This document shows positions 206 to 30,365 of a stretch of DNA of 30,533 nt, piece by piece (positions within the stretch are counted from its first letter, which is position 1; every line of letters starts with the position of its first letter). Where the stretch lies: positions 1 through 30,533 of the IMG/VR virus record IMGVR_UViG_3300025127_000158, one strand, 5' to 3'. This DNA is from a virus. A program made the position numbers and the translations under genes. The notes beneath the pieces were generated by a model. It was not told the origin of the DNA. It saw only the letters and a program-made list of their open reading frames with translations, and searched no databases.

Positions 206-519
206 TTGGCACGGTAGACATAAAAAAGATGCACCACCGCGACCCCAAGGAGACAGAACGCGCGGCGGCGCACAAGGTGGCCCAGACAGTCAAGGGAAAA
301 AGACTTCAAACATTGCAGGCGCTCGCTTCTCTTGTTGGAGGAGGAACAGGAGAGCAGATAGCGCATGCGGCCAGGCTGTCTATTCTTAGCATAAGACCGC
401 GCCTGAGTGAACTGCAAGAAATGCAGTTGATCGAGGACACAGAAAACAGACGCAAAAACGCCTTTGGTAATAACGAGATCGTTTGGCGCATAACTAAGGA
501 AGGCAAAAAATGTTTGTAA
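202..519 (+). CDS. Winged helix-turn-helix protein
   Basis: This 105-residue protein has a basic N-terminus (about residues 8-34, rich in H, R and K). A probable winged-helix domain follows at about 35-98: a helix ending in LASLVGGG, the helix pair EQIAHAARLS and IRPRLSELQEM, then a wing ending in NNEIVWRIT. It probably binds DNA as a small phage regulator, but no target can be named. ATG 202 was chosen over an upstream TTG (145) because a strong AAGGAGG-like ribosome site precedes it and it overlaps the upstream stop as ATGA. The C-terminus overlaps the next gene by 10 bases. The fold assignment rests on pattern only. Confidence 0.75.
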   Translation: MIGTVDIKKMHHRDPKETERAAAHKVAQTVKGKRLQTLQALASLVGGGTGEQIAHAARLSILSIRPRLSELQEMQLIEDTENRRKNAFGNNEIVWRITKEGKKCL

Positions 520-995
520 AATTTGAAGAGATCCAACGCATGTCAAACCAGATCCGAGAGATCACCGGCGACGATCAAGACACGTTTCTTGACACGCTGG
601 ACGGTGAAACAGATGCAATGGACATTCTGGGCAAGCTCATACAAGAGCGCACCGAATGCTCAATCTTTGAGGTCGCAGCGAAAGAGCTGGCCGCAACCTA
701 CACCGCCAGAGCAAAACGACTGAGCGCAAAGCAAGACGCAATCTCGCAGACAATCGGGCATTTGCTCGATGCTATGGGCGAAACCAAGATCCAGCACGAG
801 CTTGCCACAGTTAGCAGAACAAAGCCCCGTTGGTCTGTCAGGATCGATGACGAGGCAGAGGTTCCTTCTCAGCTAATGAAGGTAACAACGCGGCCAGATG
901 TTGCAGCAATCAAGAAACAGATGGAGCAGGGCGAGACAGTGCCAGGCTGCTCGATCAACCCAGGCAACCCATCTATTACAGTGAGGATAAAATGA
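510..995 (+). CDS. Siphovirus Gp157-family protein
   Basis: The 161-residue sequence matches the Gp157 family in layout: an N-terminal helical region (IREITGDDQDTFLDTLDGE), a long charged central helix with coiled-coil character (about 50-110), and a C-terminal beta-like end reading GCSINPGNPSITVRIK. Family members are usually encoded beside single-strand annealing recombinases in phage early operons, as here. One streptococcal member has been linked to phage resistance, but the biochemical role is not established. An AAGGAAGG ribosome site precedes ATG 510. The gene overlaps its upstream neighbour by 10 bases and its downstream neighbour by 4 bases (ATGA), so this is a tightly coupled operon. 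Confidence 0.8.
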   Translation: MFVKFEEIQRMSNQIREITGDDQDTFLDTLDGETDAMDILGKLIQERTECSIFEVAAKELAATYTARAKRLSAKQDAISQTIGHLLDAMGETKIQHELATVSRTKPRWSVRIDDEAEVPSQLMKVTTRPDVAAIKKQMEQGETVPGCSINPGNPSITVRIK

Positions 996-1726
996 GTAAA
1001 CTTATTGACGCAATGAAACAGGTCAATGACCTGAACAAAACCCACGGCGTAACCCAGCGCGGCGGCAAGAAATACACAGAAGTATTTGTGCGCGTCGAAG
1101 CATTCAGACAAGCATTCGGCACAGAGCTTGGCATTGATACCTCAATCCTGGTGGACGATGGCAAGCGCGTAGTGGTCAAGGCAACCATTCTAAGCAAAGA
1201 AGGGCTAACCGTAGGCTCTGGGCTTGCTGAGGAGATACGAGGGCAGGGCAACGTCAACAAGACCAGCGCTCTGGAGAATGCAGAGACAAGCGCAATCGGT
1301 CGCGCCCTGGCATCACTTGGCTTGCATGGCGGCAGCTACGCCAGCGCCAACGATATCGCAGCAGTACAGCGCAAGGAGAAAGCCATAGAGCAACGCAAGA
1401 AGCCAAACATTAGCGTACACCCGCTCGAACCAGAACCGGAGCCTGGCTTGCTCAATCTACGAACGCATCTTGGCAAGACACTGGCCGAGCTAGATCAGTC
1501 AGAGTTTGCTATGCGCCTGGTAAAGATGTTTGCAGTCTACACAAACACGGACAAAGACAAAGAAGGCAATCCGGTAGAGCCGCGCAAGCGCATGACATTT
1601 TTGCGTGAGCTTAAAGAGCATAACGCAGAAGGCATCGAGGCATTGAGTGAACCACTGCGCGAGCAGATCGATAAAGCCTATCTGAAAAATCTACGAAGCC
1701 TTGGCGCACAGAACGGTGAGAAGTAA
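992..1726 (+). CDS. Single-strand DNA annealing protein (Erf/Rad52-like)
   Basis: This 244-residue protein probably anneals complementary single strands during phage recombination and replication. The diagnostic block is at residues 91-110, containing ENAETSAIGRALASLG, followed by an ASANDI segment (117-122). Many Erf/Rad52-like phage annealing proteins share this pattern. It is preceded by a beta-rich region (about 28-78) with VFVRVEAFRQAFG and VVVKATIL. The C-terminal third is charged and probably flexible. Adjacency to a Gp157-family gene supports the call. ATG 992 has GAGG upstream and overlaps the previous stop; the TAA overlaps the next ATG by one base. No dedicated exonuclease or Sak4-like ATPase is in the window, so partners would lie outside it. 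The exact subfamily (Erf, Sak or other) cannot be settled by eye. Confidence 0.7.
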   Translation: MSKLIDAMKQVNDLNKTHGVTQRGGKKYTEVFVRVEAFRQAFGTELGIDTSILVDDGKRVVVKATILSKEGLTVGSGLAEEIRGQGNVNKTSALENAETSAIGRALASLGLHGGSYASANDIAAVQRKEKAIEQRKKPNISVHPLEPEPEPGLLNLRTHLGKTLAELDQSEFAMRLVKMFAVYTNTDKDKEGNPVEPRKRMTFLRELKEHNAEGIEALSEPLREQIDKAYLKNLRSLGAQNGEK

Positions 1727-1992
1727 TGGAAACCTGGATAGAAATGACCGAGCGTCACAAGCAAGAAAGGATTGAGCTGGTGAAATCACTGGCACAATCC
1801 CGCTATAGCCAAACCGAAGCAGCAGAACTTCTGGACACGACACTCACTAATCTGAATAATTTTATAAAGCGCAACGGTATTTACTGGATAACCATAAAAC
1901 AAGGAAGGAGGTCAAATGCCCAAAGAGCTACAAAAGATAGCGTCATCGATAATCAGAGCAGCATCGATAATTGCAATGGACAGCAAGCGTGA
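1726..1992 (+). CDS. Small helix-turn-helix protein (Fis-like motif)
   Basis: This 88-residue frame starts by one-base overlap with the previous TAA (TAATG). Residues about 27-51 (YSQTEAAELLDTTLTNLNNFIKRNG) read as a Fis-type helix-turn-helix, in which QTEAAELL is the first helix and the LTNLNNFIKRNG segment the recognition helix. It probably binds DNA. The last 25 or so residues are polar and low-complexity, and they overlap the next gene by 77 bases. That gene has an excellent ribosome site inside this frame, so this protein may be under weak constraint at its C-terminus. The coding call is fairly secure for the first 60 residues. Confidence 0.65.
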   Translation: METWIEMTERHKQERIELVKSLAQSRYSQTEAAELLDTTLTNLNNFIKRNGIYWITIKQGRRSNAQRATKDSVIDNQSSIDNCNGQQA

Positions 1993-2083
1993 ACCGAAGC
2001 GGCACACAATCTCGCAGCGAGCAGAAGAGATTATAAAGCTGGCAGAGCTATTGAAGAAAGGACTGGAAGAAAACAATGACTGA
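1916..2083 (+). CDS. Small helical protein, unknown function
   Basis: This 55-residue gene begins inside the preceding gene. The ribosome site AAGGAGGTCAA before ATG 1916 is close to ideal and is the main reason to accept it. The product is strongly helical and basic: residues 1-20 (KELQKIASSIIRAASIIAM) are amphipathic to hydrophobic, then comes a charged linker (DSKREPKR) and a second amphipathic helix (about 32-52, RAEEIIKLAELLKKGLEE). I do not recognise a family. Its stop overlaps the next gene by 8 bases. The 77-base overlap with the upstream gene is unusually long for this otherwise tidy operon. Confidence 0.6.
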   Translation: MPKELQKIASSIIRAASIIAMDSKREPKRHTISQRAEEIIKLAELLKKGLEENND

Positions 2084-2264
2084 ACCCGCATTTATGGCGT
2101 TTGTAATATTCTCGTCGCTGAGTGAGTGTAAGGACTTTGCTGAGTATTATGACCTGGAAAGGCTCTTCGAACCTCAGTGCGTACAAATGGGCGGCCCTCC
2201 AGAGTATCAGCTCCCCATTCCAAACATCAGACCCATGCCAAAACCGGAGGCCTCTGATGACTGA
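2076..2264 (+). CDS. Small acidic protein, unknown function
   Basis: This 62-residue protein has a hydrophobic start (FMAFVIFSSLSE), then DFAEYYDLERLFEP and a proline-rich tail (PPEYQLPIPNIRPMPKP). No family is recognised. Overlaps with the previous gene (8 bases) and the next gene (8 bases) fit the coupled layout of this operon. The ribosome site is moderate (GGAAG about 8 bases upstream). The proline-rich tail suggests an extended segment rather than a folded domain. Confidence 0.5.
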   Translation: MTEPAFMAFVIFSSLSECKDFAEYYDLERLFEPQCVQMGGPPEYQLPIPNIRPMPKPEASDD

Positions 2265-2541
2265 GGATCAAATGCGTGAGGCCATGCTCGAAGATGCAAA
2301 GGCAATCAGAAAGAGAACGCAATCGCGTGATGGTCAAACCCAATCTCTAAAACAAAACGTAGCTGTTGATTATAATATGGGCGGCAGAGACGCTAAACCA
2401 GAAACAAAGGAGATTATTGACCTGGCAAACAAAGGTGTAGACCGCGACACCATATGCAGACGCATGAGTTTTAAGGGATACACTCGAAAGAGAACGCTGG
2501 ATACTTTAGTGCGGCATTCTGATAAAATAAAAAAACGTTGA
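2257..2541 (+). CDS. Small basic protein with helix-turn-helix-like C-terminus
   Basis: ATG 2257 was chosen because GGAGG sits six bases upstream and the start overlaps the preceding gene slightly; the frame is open further upstream but without a comparable signal. The 94-residue product begins with a charged helix (EDQMREAMLEDAKAIRKR), has a polar linker, and ends with a probable helix-turn-helix at about 50-88 (KEIIDLANKGVDRDTICRRM, then TRKRTLDTLVRH). A DNA-binding role is inferred. It is the last gene of the plus-strand operon; about 125 bases downstream lies an intrinsic terminator. Confidence 0.65.
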   Translation: MTEDQMREAMLEDAKAIRKRTQSRDGQTQSLKQNVAVDYNMGGRDAKPETKEIIDLANKGVDRDTICRRMSFKGYTRKRTLDTLVRHSDKIKKR

Positions 2542-2666
2542 CCTAAGACTTAAATCAATGCAAAGTAAATTTAACCGAGGGGTTTGGTCGCCTCAACGTT
2601 GCTATATATGTACGCTTTCATTGTGGTATGCGGGTTGCATTTCGATCTATGTTAGGTAAGGGGAAG

Positions 2667-2696
2667 CCCTCTCAGAGAAATCTGGGGGGGTTTTTT
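2667..2696 (+). terminator. Intrinsic terminator of the plus-strand operon
   Basis: CCCTCTCAGA (2667-2676) pairs with TCTGGGGGGG (2681-2690) across a GAAA loop of the stable GNRA type. That gives a 10-bp stem with two G-U pairs, followed directly by six T (2691-2696). This is a textbook rho-independent terminator on the plus strand. It sits in the 218-base gap (2542-2759) between the converging operons. The rest of the gap holds no convincing gene. It has an 8-bp inverted repeat (2534-2541 with 2593-2600). On the minus strand the hairpin lacks a U-tract, so termination of the lysis operon is not explained. Confidence 0.9.
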
Positions 2697-2759
2697 CGTG
2701 GGGCCAGCAAGTCCATCACAACCCTGTCACAGTTTCCTGTTAGCCAGCCCCGAAAATAT

Positions 2760-3188
2760 TTATGACCAATCTTTTACAGCAAAGCAAGGGCAAGCCTTTC
2801 TAGCATAGGAATTATGTCCAGATATTTCTTTGATGCTGGGGAACTTGCTGCTGTATTCCACAATCAATTCACGCAAAGCCTCTTCTTGCTCTGGCGTAAA
2901 GTTATCTAAGAAAGCATCGTCAGCACAGCCGCCACGGCCACCTACTAGGCTTACCCCTATGGATGCCTTGTTGCGCCCCCTACAGTGCGCCCCTGAGCGC
3001 TCTACGGGCCTGCCATAGCCTACAGATCCATCGCGGTGAATAATTGCGTGGTAGCCAATGTCAGACCAGTTACGTTCTTCCACATGCCAGCGCCTTATCT
3101 CTGCAACCACATCATCAACAGATCGATCAGCATACCAGCTTGGATTTGTTGCAGTGCAGTGAATTATAATCTCGTTAATCTCTCTCAT
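2760..3188 (-). CDS. Endolysin: N-acetylmuramoyl-L-alanine amidase (T7 lysozyme type)
   Basis: This 142-residue protein cleaves the bond between N-acetylmuramic acid and L-alanine in peptidoglycan to release progeny. It aligns along its length with T7 lysozyme (Amidase_2): IIHCTAT near the start, DIGYHAIIHRDGSV (43-56), IGVSLVGG (77-84), FTPEQEEAL, and GHNSYARKACPCF (124-136). By comparison with T7, the zinc ligands are H10, H125 and C133, and the catalytic residues are Y46 and K131. There is no signal peptide, so export depends on the upstream holins. ATG overlaps the holin stop (ATGA). T7 lysozyme also inhibits T7 RNA polymerase; no such polymerase is visible here, so that second role is not implied. 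It is the last gene of the minus operon. Confidence 0.93.
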   Translation of the reverse strand: MREINEIIIHCTATNPSWYADRSVDDVVAEIRRWHVEERNWSDIGYHAIIHRDGSVGYGRPVERSGAHCRGRNKASIGVSLVGGRGGCADDAFLDNFTPEQEEALRELIVEYSSKFPSIKEISGHNSYARKACPCFAVKDWS

Positions 3189-3580
3189 TTGGTTAAGCCT
3201 TTCTGCTTTTCATATGTTCTCAAGCCACCAATCCCCAGCATACCACCAAGAACAGTGAGCAGCGTTCCCATGTCAAATTCTGGCAAAGGCGGGATTTCTG
3301 TTCCCGTTAGCGCAACGACAAAAAGGGCAACAGGCTGACCAATAAAATGCCAACCAAAAGCAAGCCCACACACCCAACCAATGAAAGGACGCCAGCCACC
3401 TTTAAAAGTGCTTCCACTTGCTGCCTCTGCCTGGTTGACCGATATTTGAGCCAGGGCCAGCTCTTGCGCGTGTCGATCCGACATAGTAGCAATCTCGTGC
3501 GCGAGCTTTGCTTTCTCGTCAGCATCAGGAATGAACTTGTCTAAGAGGCCAGTGACCGGCGCTATCAGTTTATCAATCAT
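3185..3580 (-). CDS. Holin, 3-transmembrane GTA-type family
   Basis: The 131-residue protein has an amphipathic N-terminus (IDKLIAPVTGLLDKFIPDADEKAKLAHEI), then GGWRPFIGWVCGLAFGW (61-77) leading into hydrophobic stretches at about 66-92 and 104-122. This matches the 3TM holin family first noted in gene transfer agents (the GWRPFIGW motif is typical). It would form inner-membrane lesions that release the endolysin encoded immediately downstream. ATG 3580 was chosen over a GTG at 3598 because it overlaps the upstream stop as ATGA. Confidence 0.85.
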   Translation of the reverse strand: MIDKLIAPVTGLLDKFIPDADEKAKLAHEIATMSDRHAQELALAQISVNQAEAASGSTFKGGWRPFIGWVCGLAFGWHFIGQPVALFVVALTGTEIPPLPEFDMGTLLTVLGGMLGIGGLRTYEKQKGLTK

Positions 3581-3765
3581 TTCTCCGATCCTAACCACAC
3601 AGCAAATGCACCAGTCATTGCACCAGCAACAACACTAATAAGCGCACTCTGCTGTGTACTAAGATCAGGCTGAGTCAGCGCCCACTCGATGCAGCGAATA
3701 TACATTACAGTCATTACCAGCATCATCAAACGCGGCATGATCTTCCAAGCAAGTATCTTTTCCAT
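3577..3765 (-). CDS. Small two-helix membrane protein of the lysis cassette
   Basis: The 62-residue product has two transmembrane segments (about 10-30, PRLMMLVMTVMYIRCIEWAL; and 38-58, QSALISVVAGAMTGAFAVWLG) joined by a polar loop (TQPDLSTQ). Short proteins of this shape occur beside holins in many phages. It could be a holin, antiholin or accessory pore protein, but sequence alone does not decide which. ATG 3765 is preferred to GTG 3771 because GAGG lies five bases upstream. It overlaps the 3TM holin gene by 4 bases. Confidence 0.75.
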   Translation of the reverse strand: MEKILAWKIMPRLMMLVMTVMYIRCIEWALTQPDLSTQQSALISVVAGAMTGAFAVWLGSEK

Positions 3766-3767
3766 AG

Positions 3768-4229
3768 TCACCTCATATCTTTTAGAAATTCAGTAAAGAA
3801 GTATAGGGCAACAAAGCCCCCAATACTTAGAGTAGCAATCAAACCCCAGGAAATATATTTAATTGTAGCAGCAATTTGACGTTGCCGCTCTTCAGCCTCT
3901 TTCTTTCGCTGAACGCGCATCTTGGCTTCAAAGGCTAAGAATGAATCCCAAGTGCCTGGCTTGCCATACAATCGGCAAATAGATTCTAGCTCTTTTCTTT
4001 GCTCTTGGATCTTTTGCAAGGCTAAGAACTCATCAAAGTCATCAGCAGATTTGCCCATGACCTTGGAAAATAAACCATTCTTTTTGCGGTTGCCTCTGGC
4101 TCTTAGCTCTTCTTCAGAGCTTACAAGATTTTTAAGAGGTGCCAGAAAATCCGACACCTCCTTGCCATTAGAAACAAACTTCTTAATCGTGCTGTAAGCA
4201 GCGTTAGCTGCTGCTAATTCAGCAAGCAT
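3768..4229 (-). CDS. Tail-anchored coiled-coil membrane protein, unknown function
   Basis: This 153-residue protein is mostly helical and charged. An N-terminal segment (LAELAAANAAYSTIKKFVSNG) is followed by a basic stretch (ELRARGNRKKNG), a conserved-looking core (FDEFLALQKIQEQRKELESI; YGKPGTWDSFLAFEAKMR) and a basic coiled coil. One C-terminal transmembrane helix lies at about 124-146. Similar proteins are familiar from marine phage genomes, where they are left unnamed. Its place between a hemolysin-like protein and two holin-like proteins suggests a lysis or membrane role. It is not a classical Rz, which has its anchor at the N-terminus. Confidence 0.75.
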   Translation of the reverse strand: MLAELAAANAAYSTIKKFVSNGKEVSDFLAPLKNLVSSEEELRARGNRKKNGLFSKVMGKSADDFDEFLALQKIQEQRKELESICRLYGKPGTWDSFLAFEAKMRVQRKKEAEERQRQIAATIKYISWGLIATLSIGGFVALYFFTEFLKDMR

Positions 4230-25119: not shown

Positions 25120-25599
25120 TCAAAACCTCGCCATCATGTAGTAGTCAGCCCCCTCTGGGCCAAACTTTCTCATAATACTTTCTACCTCAAAATGCAGTGC
25201 TTTGGCAAACTTAAATGCGCTATCATTTTCTACTTTTACGCAGATTTGTAGCCTTCTAACACCATAATCTTGCAAAGCGGTATCGGTTACAGCCCTTGCG
25301 CCACGCACAAGTGATATCGCATGTTTGGAAAGATCCTCGCTCGGAACCATCCACATCTCAGCCAAGCCAGGCCAGTTCATACGAATGCCAAAGGCAGCAA
25401 TAACTCTACCTCTGCCAATCGCTGCCCAGCTCCATCCATCCTCTGAGTTATCCCAAATATAATCTATGTAGTTGGGAACGTATCGCATGTACTCCTTGCT
25501 ATCTTCTGTAAACCGCATTCTCGGCAAATGTTCAAAGCGTAGAGGAACAATTTGCTCATCTGAACTCATGCGAAACTCTGGAAGCTGAATCAATCCCAT
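25120..25599 (-). CDS. GNAT-like acetyltransferase-fold protein
   Basis: This 159-residue protein has the strand-helix order of a GNAT fold: DEQIVPLRFEHLPRMR, a WSWAAIGRGRVIAAFGIRM hairpin, LAEMWMVPSE (central strand), a helix HAISLVRGARAVTDTALQDYG, RRLQICVKVENDSAFKFAKALHFE, and the closing YYMMARF. That ending matches typical GNAT C-termini. The canonical acetyl-CoA loop (Q/RxxGxG/A) is not clear; SKHAISLVRGA occupies its place. It may therefore be an inactive or divergent member, as suggested for T7 gp13-like proteins. It starts within one base of the terminase stop. Confidence 0.7.
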   Translation of the reverse strand: MGLIQLPEFRMSSDEQIVPLRFEHLPRMRFTEDSKEYMRYVPNYIDYIWDNSEDGWSWAAIGRGRVIAAFGIRMNWPGLAEMWMVPSEDLSKHAISLVRGARAVTDTALQDYGVRRLQICVKVENDSAFKFAKALHFEVESIMRKFGPEGADYYMMARF

Positions 25600-27122
25600 T
25601 AGAAGATCTCAAAGTCTGTTGCTGCATTAAACGTCTGGCCACCAGCAAAGCTGTTGCCGTAGTTACCGCGCCGTAATCGACGTTGCTCACCACCACCCAG
25701 CATTAGATAGCCAAACGCATCCCCACAGTGAGAATGCTCGTTCTTTACCGGCATGTCCTTGAACCGCTCTTGACCAGCGCCGAGAGATTGACGCTTGAAG
25801 AAATAACCACCGGCTAAAGACTTTCTCAGCCTCAAGCATTTCTTATTTACCATTAGCCCAGGCTTGCCGCTCACCAGCCTATTCATAGGCGCAGCAGCAG
25901 CCTCACGGCGCACGTTGAACGCGTTACTGTCAGTCGGAGAGGCTTTGAAGCCAATCGAGCGCAAGTGATCGAAGGCAGTCACCTCATAGATTTCATCGCG
26001 CTTGTTACCGGCGGGATCACCCCATATCACCACCTCAGCCTTATTGAAGGACGCAGCAATCTTAGCAAGAAGCTCTTGCCCAAACCTCTCAAGCCCCATG
26101 TCAAACGTCACAAGCTCATCGAGAACCTTCCAGGCGCCACCAGATGTACGCTGTCCAAAGATAGCGGCTGGCGTCAAACCAAAGTCAACGCCGATCTGCA
26201 ATGGATATTGTGGATCATAAGTGACATCACCTGACATCATATCATCGTCATACTCAGGCCAGACAGGACGCCCCTCTTGCACAAACGTATACTTGCCTTC
26301 AGCGTAGCACCTGATCCAATCAGCATTCTTACCGCCGAGAAGCTGCTCATAATATCCGCTTGGCAAATGAACCTTGTTCTCAGCAGAGGGATTAACCATC
26401 CACCACTTAGCCCCAGAGAACACAAATCCATTCGCCTCTGGGTTTTCGGGCAGATCCTTGCCGCTTACCTCCAGCACACCGCCTGGCTGCCGGTAGAACT
26501 TCCAGGGAAACCGACCACCGATAGGATTCTTCTCTGCAAGCTCATGCCACCAGTGATCCGCGTCAGGCGGGTTAGTATCCATAATAATGCCATACCAGGA
26601 CGCGCCACCGTCAGACTGAGTAGGATAACGGCCAACACGGTGCGTCAGCCCGTCGATCACAGCCTTCGGCAGCTCACGGGCCTCGTTTACCCATGCCCCT
26701 GTTAGCTCCAGCGACAGCAGCTTCCTTACGTCTTGTGGCGTAGAAAGAGCCATGAAGATAACTTCGCAGTCTATACCAGGCGCACCTTCCCTCGAAGGCA
26801 GCTTTAGATGGTGCGTGATAGGCGGTTGCCAGCGCATTGCACCCCATACATCCTCTGGGAATAACTCTTGCCAGGTCTTGATTGTTGTTGTTCTTAGCTC
26901 TGGATAGGTATTACGCACGATTACAAACCGAGAATACCGAATGCCATCACGCGGCGAAGGCTTTTGCTGAACAGCCTTGAGCATTATTTCAGCAGCGCAG
27001 CCGTATGATTTACCAGATCCAACCGGACCCATAATCCCGCGAACAAAAGATTTGTCGTGTAGAAACTTCCAAACCGTTGCAGACTTGGAAAAATCCAAGT
27101 TCATGCTGGGAAGATCAGTCAT
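25599..27122 (-). CDS. terL: Terminase large subunit
   Basis: This 507-residue protein is the packaging motor. The N-terminal ATPase has Walker A GPVGSGKS (32-39) and a Walker B-like strand ELTGAWVNEARELP (139-152), with E147 the likely catalytic carboxylate. The C-terminal nuclease has D313 (GVDFGLTPAAIFG), D369 (VVIWGDPAGNKRDE) and D468 (HSHCGDAFGYLML), the expected metal-binding acids. Start choice: of the three in-frame ATGs near 27134, the one at 27122 has GAGG six bases upstream. It overlaps the terminase small subunit gene by 8 bases. All key motifs are intact. Confidence 0.95.
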   Translation of the reverse strand: MTDLPSMNLDFSKSATVWKFLHDKSFVRGIMGPVGSGKSYGCAAEIMLKAVQQKPSPRDGIRYSRFVIVRNTYPELRTTTIKTWQELFPEDVWGAMRWQPPITHHLKLPSREGAPGIDCEVIFMALSTPQDVRKLLSLELTGAWVNEARELPKAVIDGLTHRVGRYPTQSDGGASWYGIIMDTNPPDADHWWHELAEKNPIGGRFPWKFYRQPGGVLEVSGKDLPENPEANGFVFSGAKWWMVNPSAENKVHLPSGYYEQLLGGKNADWIRCYAEGKYTFVQEGRPVWPEYDDDMMSGDVTYDPQYPLQIGVDFGLTPAAIFGQRTSGGAWKVLDELVTFDMGLERFGQELLAKIAASFNKAEVVIWGDPAGNKRDEIYEVTAFDHLRSIGFKASPTDSNAFNVRREAAAAPMNRLVSGKPGLMVNKKCLRLRKSLAGGYFFKRQSLGAGQERFKDMPVKNEHSHCGDAFGYLMLGGGEQRRLRRGNYGNSFAGGQTFNAATDFEIF

Positions 27123-27534
27123 CATCTGCCTCATACGTTGTGGTAATATCTGGCCCCTTCATGTTGATCCCAACAATCGAAGGCTTGTCCACATTCTTCT
27201 CCACATCGAGCAAGCCACTAGCCTTAGCCAAGACGCGCAGAGGGCCTATCTTGTCAAACATTTCTATCGTCGTACCATGCTGGCCAACAGTCACCTTCTT
27301 GATTGCCGAGAGAGCTTCGTCAGGAATGTCTTTCAGCGGCTTTACCTGACCAGTATGCAGATCAATAATATCCGTAATTTTAGACGTGCCAATAGCAATA
27401 AGCTCAGCAGCCACAGCCTCTTTGTTCTGAGCCAATGTCTCCGAGCGGCCAATTCGACGCTGCAACAAACGCGCGCCGCCAAACCGACCAACCGGCGGGA
27501 TAGGTTTTATCTTATCCTCTTTTTTTCTGCTCAT
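27115..27534 (-). CDS. terS: Terminase small subunit
   Basis: The 139-residue protein precedes and overlaps the large subunit. It has a basic N-terminus (SRKKEDKIKPIPPVGRFGGARL), a helical core (RSETLAQNKEAVAAELIAIG), and a C-terminal segment (LKDIPDEALSAIKKVTVGQH; IEMFDKIGPLRVLAKASGLLD) that resembles the oligomerisation and large-subunit-contact part of several podovirus small terminases. The tail is acidic (TYEADDD). It would recognise the packaging site. No cos or pac site could be assigned. Confidence 0.82.
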   Translation of the reverse strand: MSRKKEDKIKPIPPVGRFGGARLLQRRIGRSETLAQNKEAVAAELIAIGTSKITDIIDLHTGQVKPLKDIPDEALSAIKKVTVGQHGTTIEMFDKIGPLRVLAKASGLLDVEKNVDKPSIVGINMKGPDITTTYEADDD

Positions 27535-27857: not shown

Positions 27858-28097
27858 TTAAAACGGTATGCTATCGCCACCCGTATCCGTATCGGCACGA
27901 GAAGGTTGCTGAGAACGTGAGCCATCATCTTCAAACAGCTTCAGCCAAACCTCACCGTCCTTATTCGGCAAAGGCAATCCCTCTAGCTTAATGCTGATAC
28001 CCTTATCATTCGCAAAAGCAATACCATGACGCAACCAAACCGGCTTATCCCGACCAGGCACTTCCTTGGCTTGCACAACACTAAAACGCTTAGACAT
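27858..28097 (-). CDS. Small SSB-like protein with acidic IPF tip
   Basis: The 79-residue protein has a beta-rich body (RFSVVQAKEVPGRDKPVWLRHGIAF; KGISIKLEGLPLPNKDGEVWLKLFED). It also has a Ser/Gln-rich flexible linker (DGSRSQQPSRADTDTGGD) and ends in DSIPF. Single-stranded DNA-binding proteins show the same organisation: an OB-like body, a disordered linker and an acidic tip ending I/LPF that docks partner proteins. The body is short for a canonical OB fold of 100 residues or more. A similar family of 'NDKG.I..KL..LP' proteins occurs in phages without a firm name. AGGAGG precedes ATG. The function is inferred. Confidence 0.65.
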   Translation of the reverse strand: MSKRFSVVQAKEVPGRDKPVWLRHGIAFANDKGISIKLEGLPLPNKDGEVWLKLFEDDGSRSQQPSRADTDTGGDSIPF

Positions 28098-28164
28098 TAT
28101 TTCCTCCTATACAGCGTTGCAAGTTCAATAACGATATTACAAAGAAAGCAATACCACAAGATAA

Positions 28165-28758
28165 TTATCCCCAATGAGAAGCCATTGCATCGGCTATCCC
28201 TTGGTAAGTTTTACTGCGCTCTTTCCAACGATCCTCTGATGGTGGCAATCTATTTTGCCCTGAGTCAGTTTGATTTGCCCATCTTGGCTTATCGCCAACC
28301 ATTCTGGGCTCAACAAATTTTGTCGGCCTTAGCGTTCTTAAATTCTTCAACCAAAGACAAGTACGCTTAGAGGCATCGTCTCCGAACATATACGGATGAA
28401 TTGACTGATCCGCTTTTCTTATAGCAGTGCCAATTCTGCCGACAGGGTTCTCAATAGCTATCTTACCAATAGGCGCATCCATCAATGCACGAACAAACTC
28501 TAAAGCCTCCTCAGTCTTTTGCTCCCTGCCCTCTACCCGCTTATTCCAATGCAAGCCAGAGCTGCAAAGATAAGTGCAAGGAGGAAAGGCAATCATCATA
28601 TCCCAGTCATCACCCAATAACGAAAGAACATCACCCTCTATATGAAACTCAGATCCATCATCAGAAGGCAGCAAGTCACAAGACCAAGCATCATGACCTA
28701 ATGAGCGGAAAGCCTCACGCACACGGCCAGAATATTCACAAGCAATAAGTATCCTCAT
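28165..28758 (-). CDS. Small DNA cytosine methyltransferase-like protein
   Basis: The 197-residue protein opens with a Rossmann-like first strand, RILIACEYSGRVREAF (S-adenosylmethionine-site type). It has the catalytic-loop motif PPCTYLCSSG (59-68, C61), the ENP motif (103-105, KIAIENPVG), and the segments KRTCLWLKNL and SKTYQGIADAMASHWG typical of this phage family. Full C5 methyltransferases exceed 300 residues; this one lacks an obvious target recognition region, so its specificity is unknown. A protective function against restriction is plausible. No ribosome site precedes ATG 28758, and a promoter-like element ends just before it, suggesting a leaderless transcript. Confidence 0.8.
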   Translation of the reverse strand: MRILIACEYSGRVREAFRSLGHDAWSCDLLPSDDGSEFHIEGDVLSLLGDDWDMMIAFPPCTYLCSSGLHWNKRVEGREQKTEEALEFVRALMDAPIGKIAIENPVGRIGTAIRKADQSIHPYMFGDDASKRTCLWLKNLRTLRPTKFVEPRMVGDKPRWANQTDSGQNRLPPSEDRWKERSKTYQGIADAMASHWG

Positions 28759-29700: not shown

Positions 29701-29760
29701 CGACTTTGCATATTCTGCTCGCTGAGTGCGGGTAACTGTCTTTCGGCTAGGTATGGTCAT
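29677..29760 (-). CDS. Possible 27-residue coupled peptide
   Basis: ATG 29760 overlaps the TGA of the HTH gene (TGATG), and AAAGG lies 8 bases upstream. The peptide reads TIPSRKTVTRTQRAEYAKSHNTHYVK and is strongly basic. It covers the palindrome at 29685-29700. No family is known. It may be only a chance frame. Confidence 0.3.
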   Translation of the reverse strand: MTIPSRKTVTRTQRAEYAKSHNTHYVK

Positions 29761-30365
29761 CAAGCTGCCCTTTCGTCGCTGTACGGCTCGCTCAGCAGCT
29801 CTACGGCTTGGTTTGCCAGCATTGCTGCGCCGCGTCTGAGTTTCTCCGGCTTGATTACCCAGCCATCGGCTACTGCCCGTGTGAAAAACTCTGTCGTCAA
29901 ACACTGAAATTCATCCACTAGCTTAGATAGGTCCAGTTCGACTGCCGTGTTAATACCAGTTAGGCGCATGTTACCTTCCTGTTTTAGCATTGCCTCAGCT
30001 TCACCTAATTGGATTTGCTGTTTAGGCGTTAGCCTGGAGCGTATAGTTTCCTCTAGCTTGACCTGTTGATCGTAGACGATGCGGTTGCTTGTGCTCTTCT
30101 GGTCTTTGTAGAACGGCTTACAAAACGTCATGTATCCGAACTTGCGTAGCCTTACGACATGCCAGCTTACACCTGACTGTGACAGCCCTATGTCTTGCCC
30201 TATCCTTGTTTGGCTTACGAATGTTCTGCCCATGTGATCGGCGTAGGAACAAAACGCCGCGAGCACTCTGAATGCTGACGGCGTGATGCGTGGATCTTTT
30301 AGCGCCCTGATTGGTACGACAGCAAACGCTCTGAGGTCTTTGGCTTTGAGCTGCTTTGGTCGCAT
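29760..30365 (-). CDS. Helix-turn-helix replication or regulatory protein
   Basis: The 201-residue protein has a conserved-looking start (RAFAVVPIRALKDPRITPSAFRVLAAFCSYAD) and a winged helix-turn-helix at about 48-80 (SQTRIGQDIGLSQSGVSWHVVRLRKFGYM). This arrangement is found in phage and plasmid replication initiators and HTH_36-like regulators. The C-terminal half is helical (LTPKQQIQLGEAEAMLKQ; KLVDEFQCLTTEFFTRAVADGWVIKPEKL). It could be an initiator or a transcription factor acting on the palindromes downstream. ATG overlaps the preceding TGA by one base. There is no clear ribosome site other than GAGGAG about 13 bases upstream, so coupling is likely. Confidence 0.7.
   Translation of the reverse strand: MRPKQLKAKDLRAFAVVPIRALKDPRITPSAFRVLAAFCSYADHMGRTFVSQTRIGQDIGLSQSGVSWHVVRLRKFGYMTFCKPFYKDQKSTSNRIVYDQQVKLEETIRSRLTPKQQIQLGEAEAMLKQEGNMRLTGINTAVELDLSKLVDEFQCLTTEFFTRAVADGWVIKPEKLRRGAAMLANQAVELLSEPYSDERAA

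Follow-up and report, generated by a model that had tools for sequence, protein, structure and literature searches.

A 79-residue phage protein with a bacterial SSB-type tail is probably a compact single-stranded DNA-binding protein

Results

A compact SSB candidate in a viral genome

The viral DNA analyzed here (IMG/VR record IMGVR_UViG_3300025127_000158, positions 1 to 30,533; the whole 30,533-nucleotide stretch is referred to as the window) encodes a 79-residue protein, here called mini-SSB, that is probably a functional, phage-encoded single-stranded DNA-binding protein (SSB). This reading is the best supported one because relatives of the protein are found in the places of SSBs, the tail is kept, and the family and the canonical SSB (Pfam PF00436) do not occur together in any of the 39 records searched. 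A compact phage SSB was one of two roles suggested in the first-pass annotation, and the operon place, the tail and the lack of co-occurrence with PF00436 all speak for it, from which we infer that the body binds single-stranded DNA (ssDNA). The features of the window that bear on this question are collected in Table 1.

Table 1. Position and basis of assignment of the mini-SSB gene, its parts and other relevant genes of the window
Feature	Position	Strand	Basis
Mini-SSB candidate, 79 aa	27858..28097	-	Relatives found; phrog_18187 match, E 3.4e-6
Shine-Dalgarno sequence AGGAGG	28103..28108	-	Read from sequence; 5 nt ahead of ATG
Mini-SSB body, residues 1-56	27930..28097	-	Predicted strands 3-11, 20-30, 33-38 and 53-56; conservation
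Mini-SSB linker, residues 57-74	27876..27929	-	Sequence and length vary between relatives; low pLDDT
SSB-like tip DSIPF	27861..27875	-	C-terminal pattern; comparison with relatives
Terminase small subunit (terS, PF03592), conserved downstream neighbor	27115..27534	-	Domain match; recurs in relatives
Terminase large subunit (terL)	25599..27134	-	Profile match; similarity to isolates
O-like replication initiator with HTH_36 domain, upstream neighbor	29760..30365	-	phrog_391, E 9.7e-6
Candidate single-strand annealing protein	992..1726	+	Relative of MW202512 mgM101-like protein
Gp157 / Mu Gam-like protein	510..995	+	Profile match

The open reading frame (ORF) ends in GGDSIPF, and on the opposite strand the reading of the same interval is interrupted by stops. 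Crude, uncorrected pN/pS values calculated from 65 distinct nucleotide versions averaged 0.13 for the body codons (1954 pairs) and were 0.45 for the last six codons (2080 pairs). The ORF is a real gene, conserved and under purifying selection. The 79-residue protein with a disordered tail ending in IPF that had been described initially was thus confirmed by the ORF, its Shine-Dalgarno sequence, the pN/pS values and the tips of the relatives.

A search of IMG/VR with the window protein revealed relatives encoded in 101 stretches, the best 80 of which were retained, and searches with divergent members, together with a family profile run over the fetched loci, reached proteins 22-59% identical to the window protein. 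W21, G25 and P42 are the same in all of 29 aligned members, K37, L38, L41, G48, E49, F55 and E56 are kept in at least 90%, and Q9, K18 and W51 in 83-90%. The window protein matches phrog_18187, which is listed with function unknown, over its full length (residues 1-79 on positions 1-94 of 94), and the seven other members tested also match this group (E 1e-13 to 0.0012), one of them, P0005, scoring better with phrog_37570. No match to the window protein was obtained in Pfam at E<=10, none to PF00436 in the window record, none in plasmids at E<=0.01, and nothing useful in NCBIfam. Thirteen candidate stretches in genome contigs of prokaryotes gave a single relative, whose 3,972-base contig has the look of a microvirus. 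The name SSB is borne by single family records only (MW202512, P7869, FBPa47 and FBPa19) and probably stems from automatic annotation; in the open-access literature no paper was recognized as describing a phrog_18187-type family. The family is likely to act like an SSB while falling outside PF00436.

Conservation of the tail and tip

A disordered linker followed by an acidic tip ending in I-P-F, a feature of bacterial-type SSBs, is present in the window protein. All 44 distinct close-relative proteins have D as the fifth-from-last residue and end in IPF, IPY or IPW (38, 3 and 3 proteins, respectively), so that the lack of tail conservation that the first-pass annotation had considered fatal to the SSB reading was not observed at this distance. 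In these proteins the body of about 56 residues is nearly fixed, whereas the part that follows the LFE motif varies and is 21 to 37 residues long. Within the window, an end of the D-x-I-P-F/Y/W type is found in only 1 of 537 stop-to-stop ORFs of at least 30 codons.

When a tail pattern (C-terminal [DE], up to two residues, [ILV]P[FWY]) was scored on the distinct closed ORFs of at least 40 codons in the fetched loci, it was present in 64 of 107 distinct family members versus 3 of 10,623 distinct other ORFs from the same loci. Two of those three encode SSBs, namely MEP301 gp50, annotated as ssDNA binding protein, and the SSB of Pelagibacter phage Hodr, which PF00436 matches although it is annotated as hypothetical. 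The 43 family members that lack the pattern include 21 microvirus versions as well as tailed-phage clades with other tips. Unlike the close relatives, the deeper members have a tip that varies or is missing, and the endings across the family include IPF, IPW, IPY, VPF, LPF, IPI, NPW, SPW, QPW, DPWS, NPFDE and GWGQ; the generalization that every member has the tip was rejected, because in some deeper clades it is altered or absent. The MW202512 member annotated as SSB (L265:6001-6438) carries DDDIPF internally, with 36 more residues after it, and as annotated the motif is not terminal.

Exchange of the SSB body in the Ab31 BAS operon

Sequence comparison of the BAS operon of Pseudomonas phage Ab31 with its relatives in other Pseudomonas phages offers the strongest evidence that the small body does the work of an SSB body. 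The S gene of this operon, Ab31 orf36, matches PF00436, and its product is an SSB that improved recombination by BA and RecET in Escherichia coli, according to a review (PMC7516269). PAShipCat1 encodes proteins closely similar to those of Ab31 (orf39, 93.5% identity; Bet/RecT protein, 76.9%; exonuclease, 86.5%), and its next gene after the exonuclease encodes a 92-residue member of the family. The DNA similarity between the two, which covers positions 1497-4005 of the PAShipCat1 locus L269 at 83.5%, breaks off as the SSB place begins, at its first codons, returns at 4214 (83.7%), where 22 codons of the gene are left, stop included, and continues downstream. Similarity of FBPa19 to Ab31 likewise starts 22 codons before the gene end, and that of P7869 starts 8 codons before it; the exonuclease of P7869 and FBPa47 differs (36-37% identical). 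The family profile aligned with the P7869 protein from end to end (hhalign, 97.7%, E 2.3e-12), but the same comparison with the Ab31 SSB gave 2.1% and no match.

The shared tail codons and flanks, together with the differing bodies, indicate that an OB-type body and the small body take turns in a single operon place, attached to a shared SSB tail, and because this swap is seen in relatives, the window protein inherits the evidence by homology. As a side observation, the exchange of the body with retention of the tail codons spans L269:4001-4279 in PAShipCat1 and L270:29947-30393 in Ab31, and both tips deviate from the usual one, the Ab31 SSB ending in DDDIPL and the PAShipCat1 member in DDDIHF. 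Ab31 orf36 and bacterial-type SSBs resemble the mini-SSB family in having a conserved body, a flexible linker and an acidic tip of the D-D-x-I-P-F type, and family relatives fill the same operon place as orf36 with tail codons in common. In contrast, the bodies are unrelated in sequence, and that of the PF00436 proteins has about 105 residues versus about 56 residues with a four-strand model in the mini-SSB family.

Predicted fold and charge of the body

AlphaFold2, supplied with the 29 aligned members, predicted a body of four beta strands followed by a disordered tail (mean pLDDT 78.6, pTM 0.60), with 10-residue block means of pLDDT of 82-93 over residues 1-60 and residues 62-76 falling below 50. 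Since an OB fold comprises five strands, the four-strand model does not look like one. Foldseek retrieved no match at E<=0.001 among solved structures (best, 0.68), the best VIA alignment among 969 chains had a Z of 2.8, and no SSB or OB protein was present among the matches listed by the two programs. A sequence search of solved structures gave a best E of 0.5 with P0001 and none with P0006. The failure of these fold searches does not establish that the body has a different, let alone a new, fold. The early suggestion that the body is too small for a standard OB fold agrees with the four-strand model and with the absence of a PF00436 match, the negative fold search being no proof of it. Designed repeat proteins reached E 0.007 when solved structures were searched with the family profile, a result judged to be chance, no stretch passing alone. 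A comparison with predicted viral structures gave four unnamed matches at E<=0.001; the BFVD entry E5KIM2, a 402-residue viral protein and possibly a fusion, has one stretch with a similar predicted fold.

The net charge of the body is +3 in the window protein and ranges from -2 to +3 (mean +0.8) over the 29 members, and with a body so close to neutral, charge alone does not favor DNA binding.

Tail-less homologues in microviruses

Eight named Microviridae records match the family where no feature is annotated, and in the two records that were opened the homologue is flanked by the genes for the scaffolding protein and the replication initiator. A search with the gokushovirus protein yielded 23 loci, 21 of them microvirus-size contigs and 2 tailed phages (L180 and L181). 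The microvirus ORF was readable in full in 23 of the 24 loci examined, starts with GTG after GGAGG in the 8 ORFs displayed, and has a body pN/pS of 0.17 (190 pairs); the microvirus versions listed end without the tip. In marine Microviridae this unannotated ORF has about 67 codons (L002:2853-3053, L001:2966-3163 and L158-L179). That ssDNA viruses preserve a body lacking the docking tip suggests that the body has a function of its own, for which ssDNA binding would be the simplest candidate.

These homologues also bear on the other role proposed in the first-pass annotation, a decoy that takes over SSB-binding host factors. In such a protein the body would not bind DNA, and the soluble SSB tail would titrate host SSB-binding proteins or redirect them; the good match of the tip to the SSB C terminus would fit, as would a body that is not strongly basic and for which DNA binding is putative. 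However, selection is tighter on the body than on the tail (pN/pS 0.13 versus 0.45), tail-less homologues are under selection in microviruses, and relatives take the place of the canonical SSB in its operon, so that a decoy is disfavored and appears improbable.

Relatives in recombination operons

Members of the family were found beside recombination genes of several kinds. The gene order is ERF-YqaJ-member in locus L223; ERF, two further genes, YqaJ and the member in Methylophilaceae phage P19250A; mgM101-like protein, exonuclease, hypothetical protein and a member annotated as SSB in MW202512; RecT-exonuclease-member in PAShipCat1 and PS-1; and exonuclease-member, the member annotated as SSB, in P7869 and FBPa47. 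In FBPa19 the member annotated as SSB follows a hypothetical gene. EBPR podovirus 2 has the order Rad52-gp55-NinB, and gp55 was missed by the family profile, so its membership rests on a tblastn match (P0006 query, E 2e-4).

Seventeen IMG/VR records carry the family, the window included. A relative of the candidate annealing protein of the window (992-1726) is present in 8 of them, in one over residues 147-240 only, and a YqaJ exonuclease in 7 others; none has both types, and the other 2 records measure 23-25 kb. The 992-1726 protein is 41% identical to the MW202512 mgM101-like protein over 119 residues (E 8e-23), and it is also related to unnamed proteins of Pelagibacter and Lactobacillus phages. 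Its gene lies beside the Gp157/Gam-like gene and is distant from the mini-SSB gene.

This company of ERF, RecT and Rad52-type proteins and YqaJ exonucleases, and the occurrence of one or the other type in 15 of the 17 IMG/VR carriers, would also be expected if the protein were a recombination accessory whose body binds the annealing protein or the exonuclease rather than DNA, the tip linking it to host partners. We consider this unlikely, since one and the same family accompanies several unrelated annealing proteins, the microvirus carriers, with about five genes, encode neither the annealing-protein nor the exonuclease type, and the family fills the place of an SSB.

In a scan of 39 records with both PF00436 and the family profile, the family was found in 26, PF00436 in 4, both in none and neither in 9, and among 11 phages chosen only by terminase similarity PF00436 was found in 3 and the family in none. 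We take this mutual exclusion as weak, supporting evidence, because the carriers were chosen for the gene, the records may be fragments and the baseline is 3 of 11.

Neighbors of the mini-SSB gene in the window and its lineage

In the window, the mini-SSB gene is not adjacent to annealing-protein or exonuclease genes, and its neighbors are terS and a methyltransferase-like gene. The latter (28165-28758) matches phrog_757, DNA methyltransferase; of 109 distinct versions of the family gene, only 2 have it nearby. The first-pass annotation placed the gene next to terminase and not replication genes; terminase genes do lie downstream, but the O-like initiator is located 1.7 kb upstream in the same direction, an order that recurs in relatives. 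Of 88 distinct tailed-phage versions in the contig collections, 80 have a homologue of the window's terS no more than 1.2 kb downstream and 80 have terL no more than 2.5 kb downstream; the O-like initiator lies at most 2.7 kb upstream in 51, many contigs being too short to tell. A packaging accessory of the terminase, which the recurrent terS neighbor might suggest, is nevertheless very improbable, given that the members of L223, P19250A, MW202512 and the Pseudomonas phages lie in recombination operons and that the microvirus carriers have no annotated terminase.

The nearest isolate is OM43 phage MEP301 (terL, 68.5%), which has neither a PF00436 SSB nor a family member. Directly before its terS, at the matching place, it encodes gp50 (L084:2410-2700), a 96-residue protein that ends in LEDDLPF and that its authors named SSB (PMC8024684). 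Homology of gp50 with the window protein was rejected, since BLAST matches the tail only and hhalign gave 0.4%. Proteins of the gp50 kind (phrog_18154 / phrog_7364) are thus like mini-SSB in having about 100 residues, a tail ending in DDLPF and a place before terS, whereas their body does not match that of the window protein. A small ORF near the terminase of Pelagibacter phage Hodr was likewise discarded as unrelated by eye, and the family profile finds nothing in the Hodr record.

Discussion

The evidence against an SSB function of mini-SSB includes the location of the window gene beside the terminase instead of an annealing protein, the altered tips of deeper members and the DDDIHF end of the PAShipCat1 member, and the near-neutral charge of the body, as calculated, would count against a strongly basic DNA-binding surface. 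If the protein is nonetheless an SSB, its body, some 56 residues long and without sequence relation to OB-fold SSBs, would coat the ssDNA arising from phage replication and from recombination or resection, and the flexible linker would leave the D-x-I-P-F tip free. Like a normal SSB tail, the tip may then dock its putative partners, which are the annealing protein of the phage and the SSB-binding proteins of the host. The proposed recruitment by the tip is drawn by analogy with the SSB of phage HK620, whose last six residues are needed to bring the annealing protein onto SSB-covered ssDNA (PMC5928155).

Phage SSBs that are far from the bacterial ones have a precedent in the lactococcal Orf14bIL67 family (PMC3208561). 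These proteins are likewise encoded near annealing-protein genes, but they are reported to combine an OB fold with a C-terminal part that differs, whereas the family of the window protein combines a typical tail with an atypical body.

We tentatively suggest, with slightly less than even confidence, that the family forms a separate class of ssDNA-binding proteins, with a four-strand body of about 56 residues that is not OB-derived and that was swapped with OB bodies on one SSB tail; the tail-less form in marine ssDNA microviruses could cover the genome strands and yet recruit no host repair proteins. If the SSB reading is true, it would provide a function for phrog_18187 and for an unannotated gene of marine microviruses, structural studies and recombineering tools would gain a very small SSB, and it would mean that the SSB tail is a module able to outlive its DNA-binding body.
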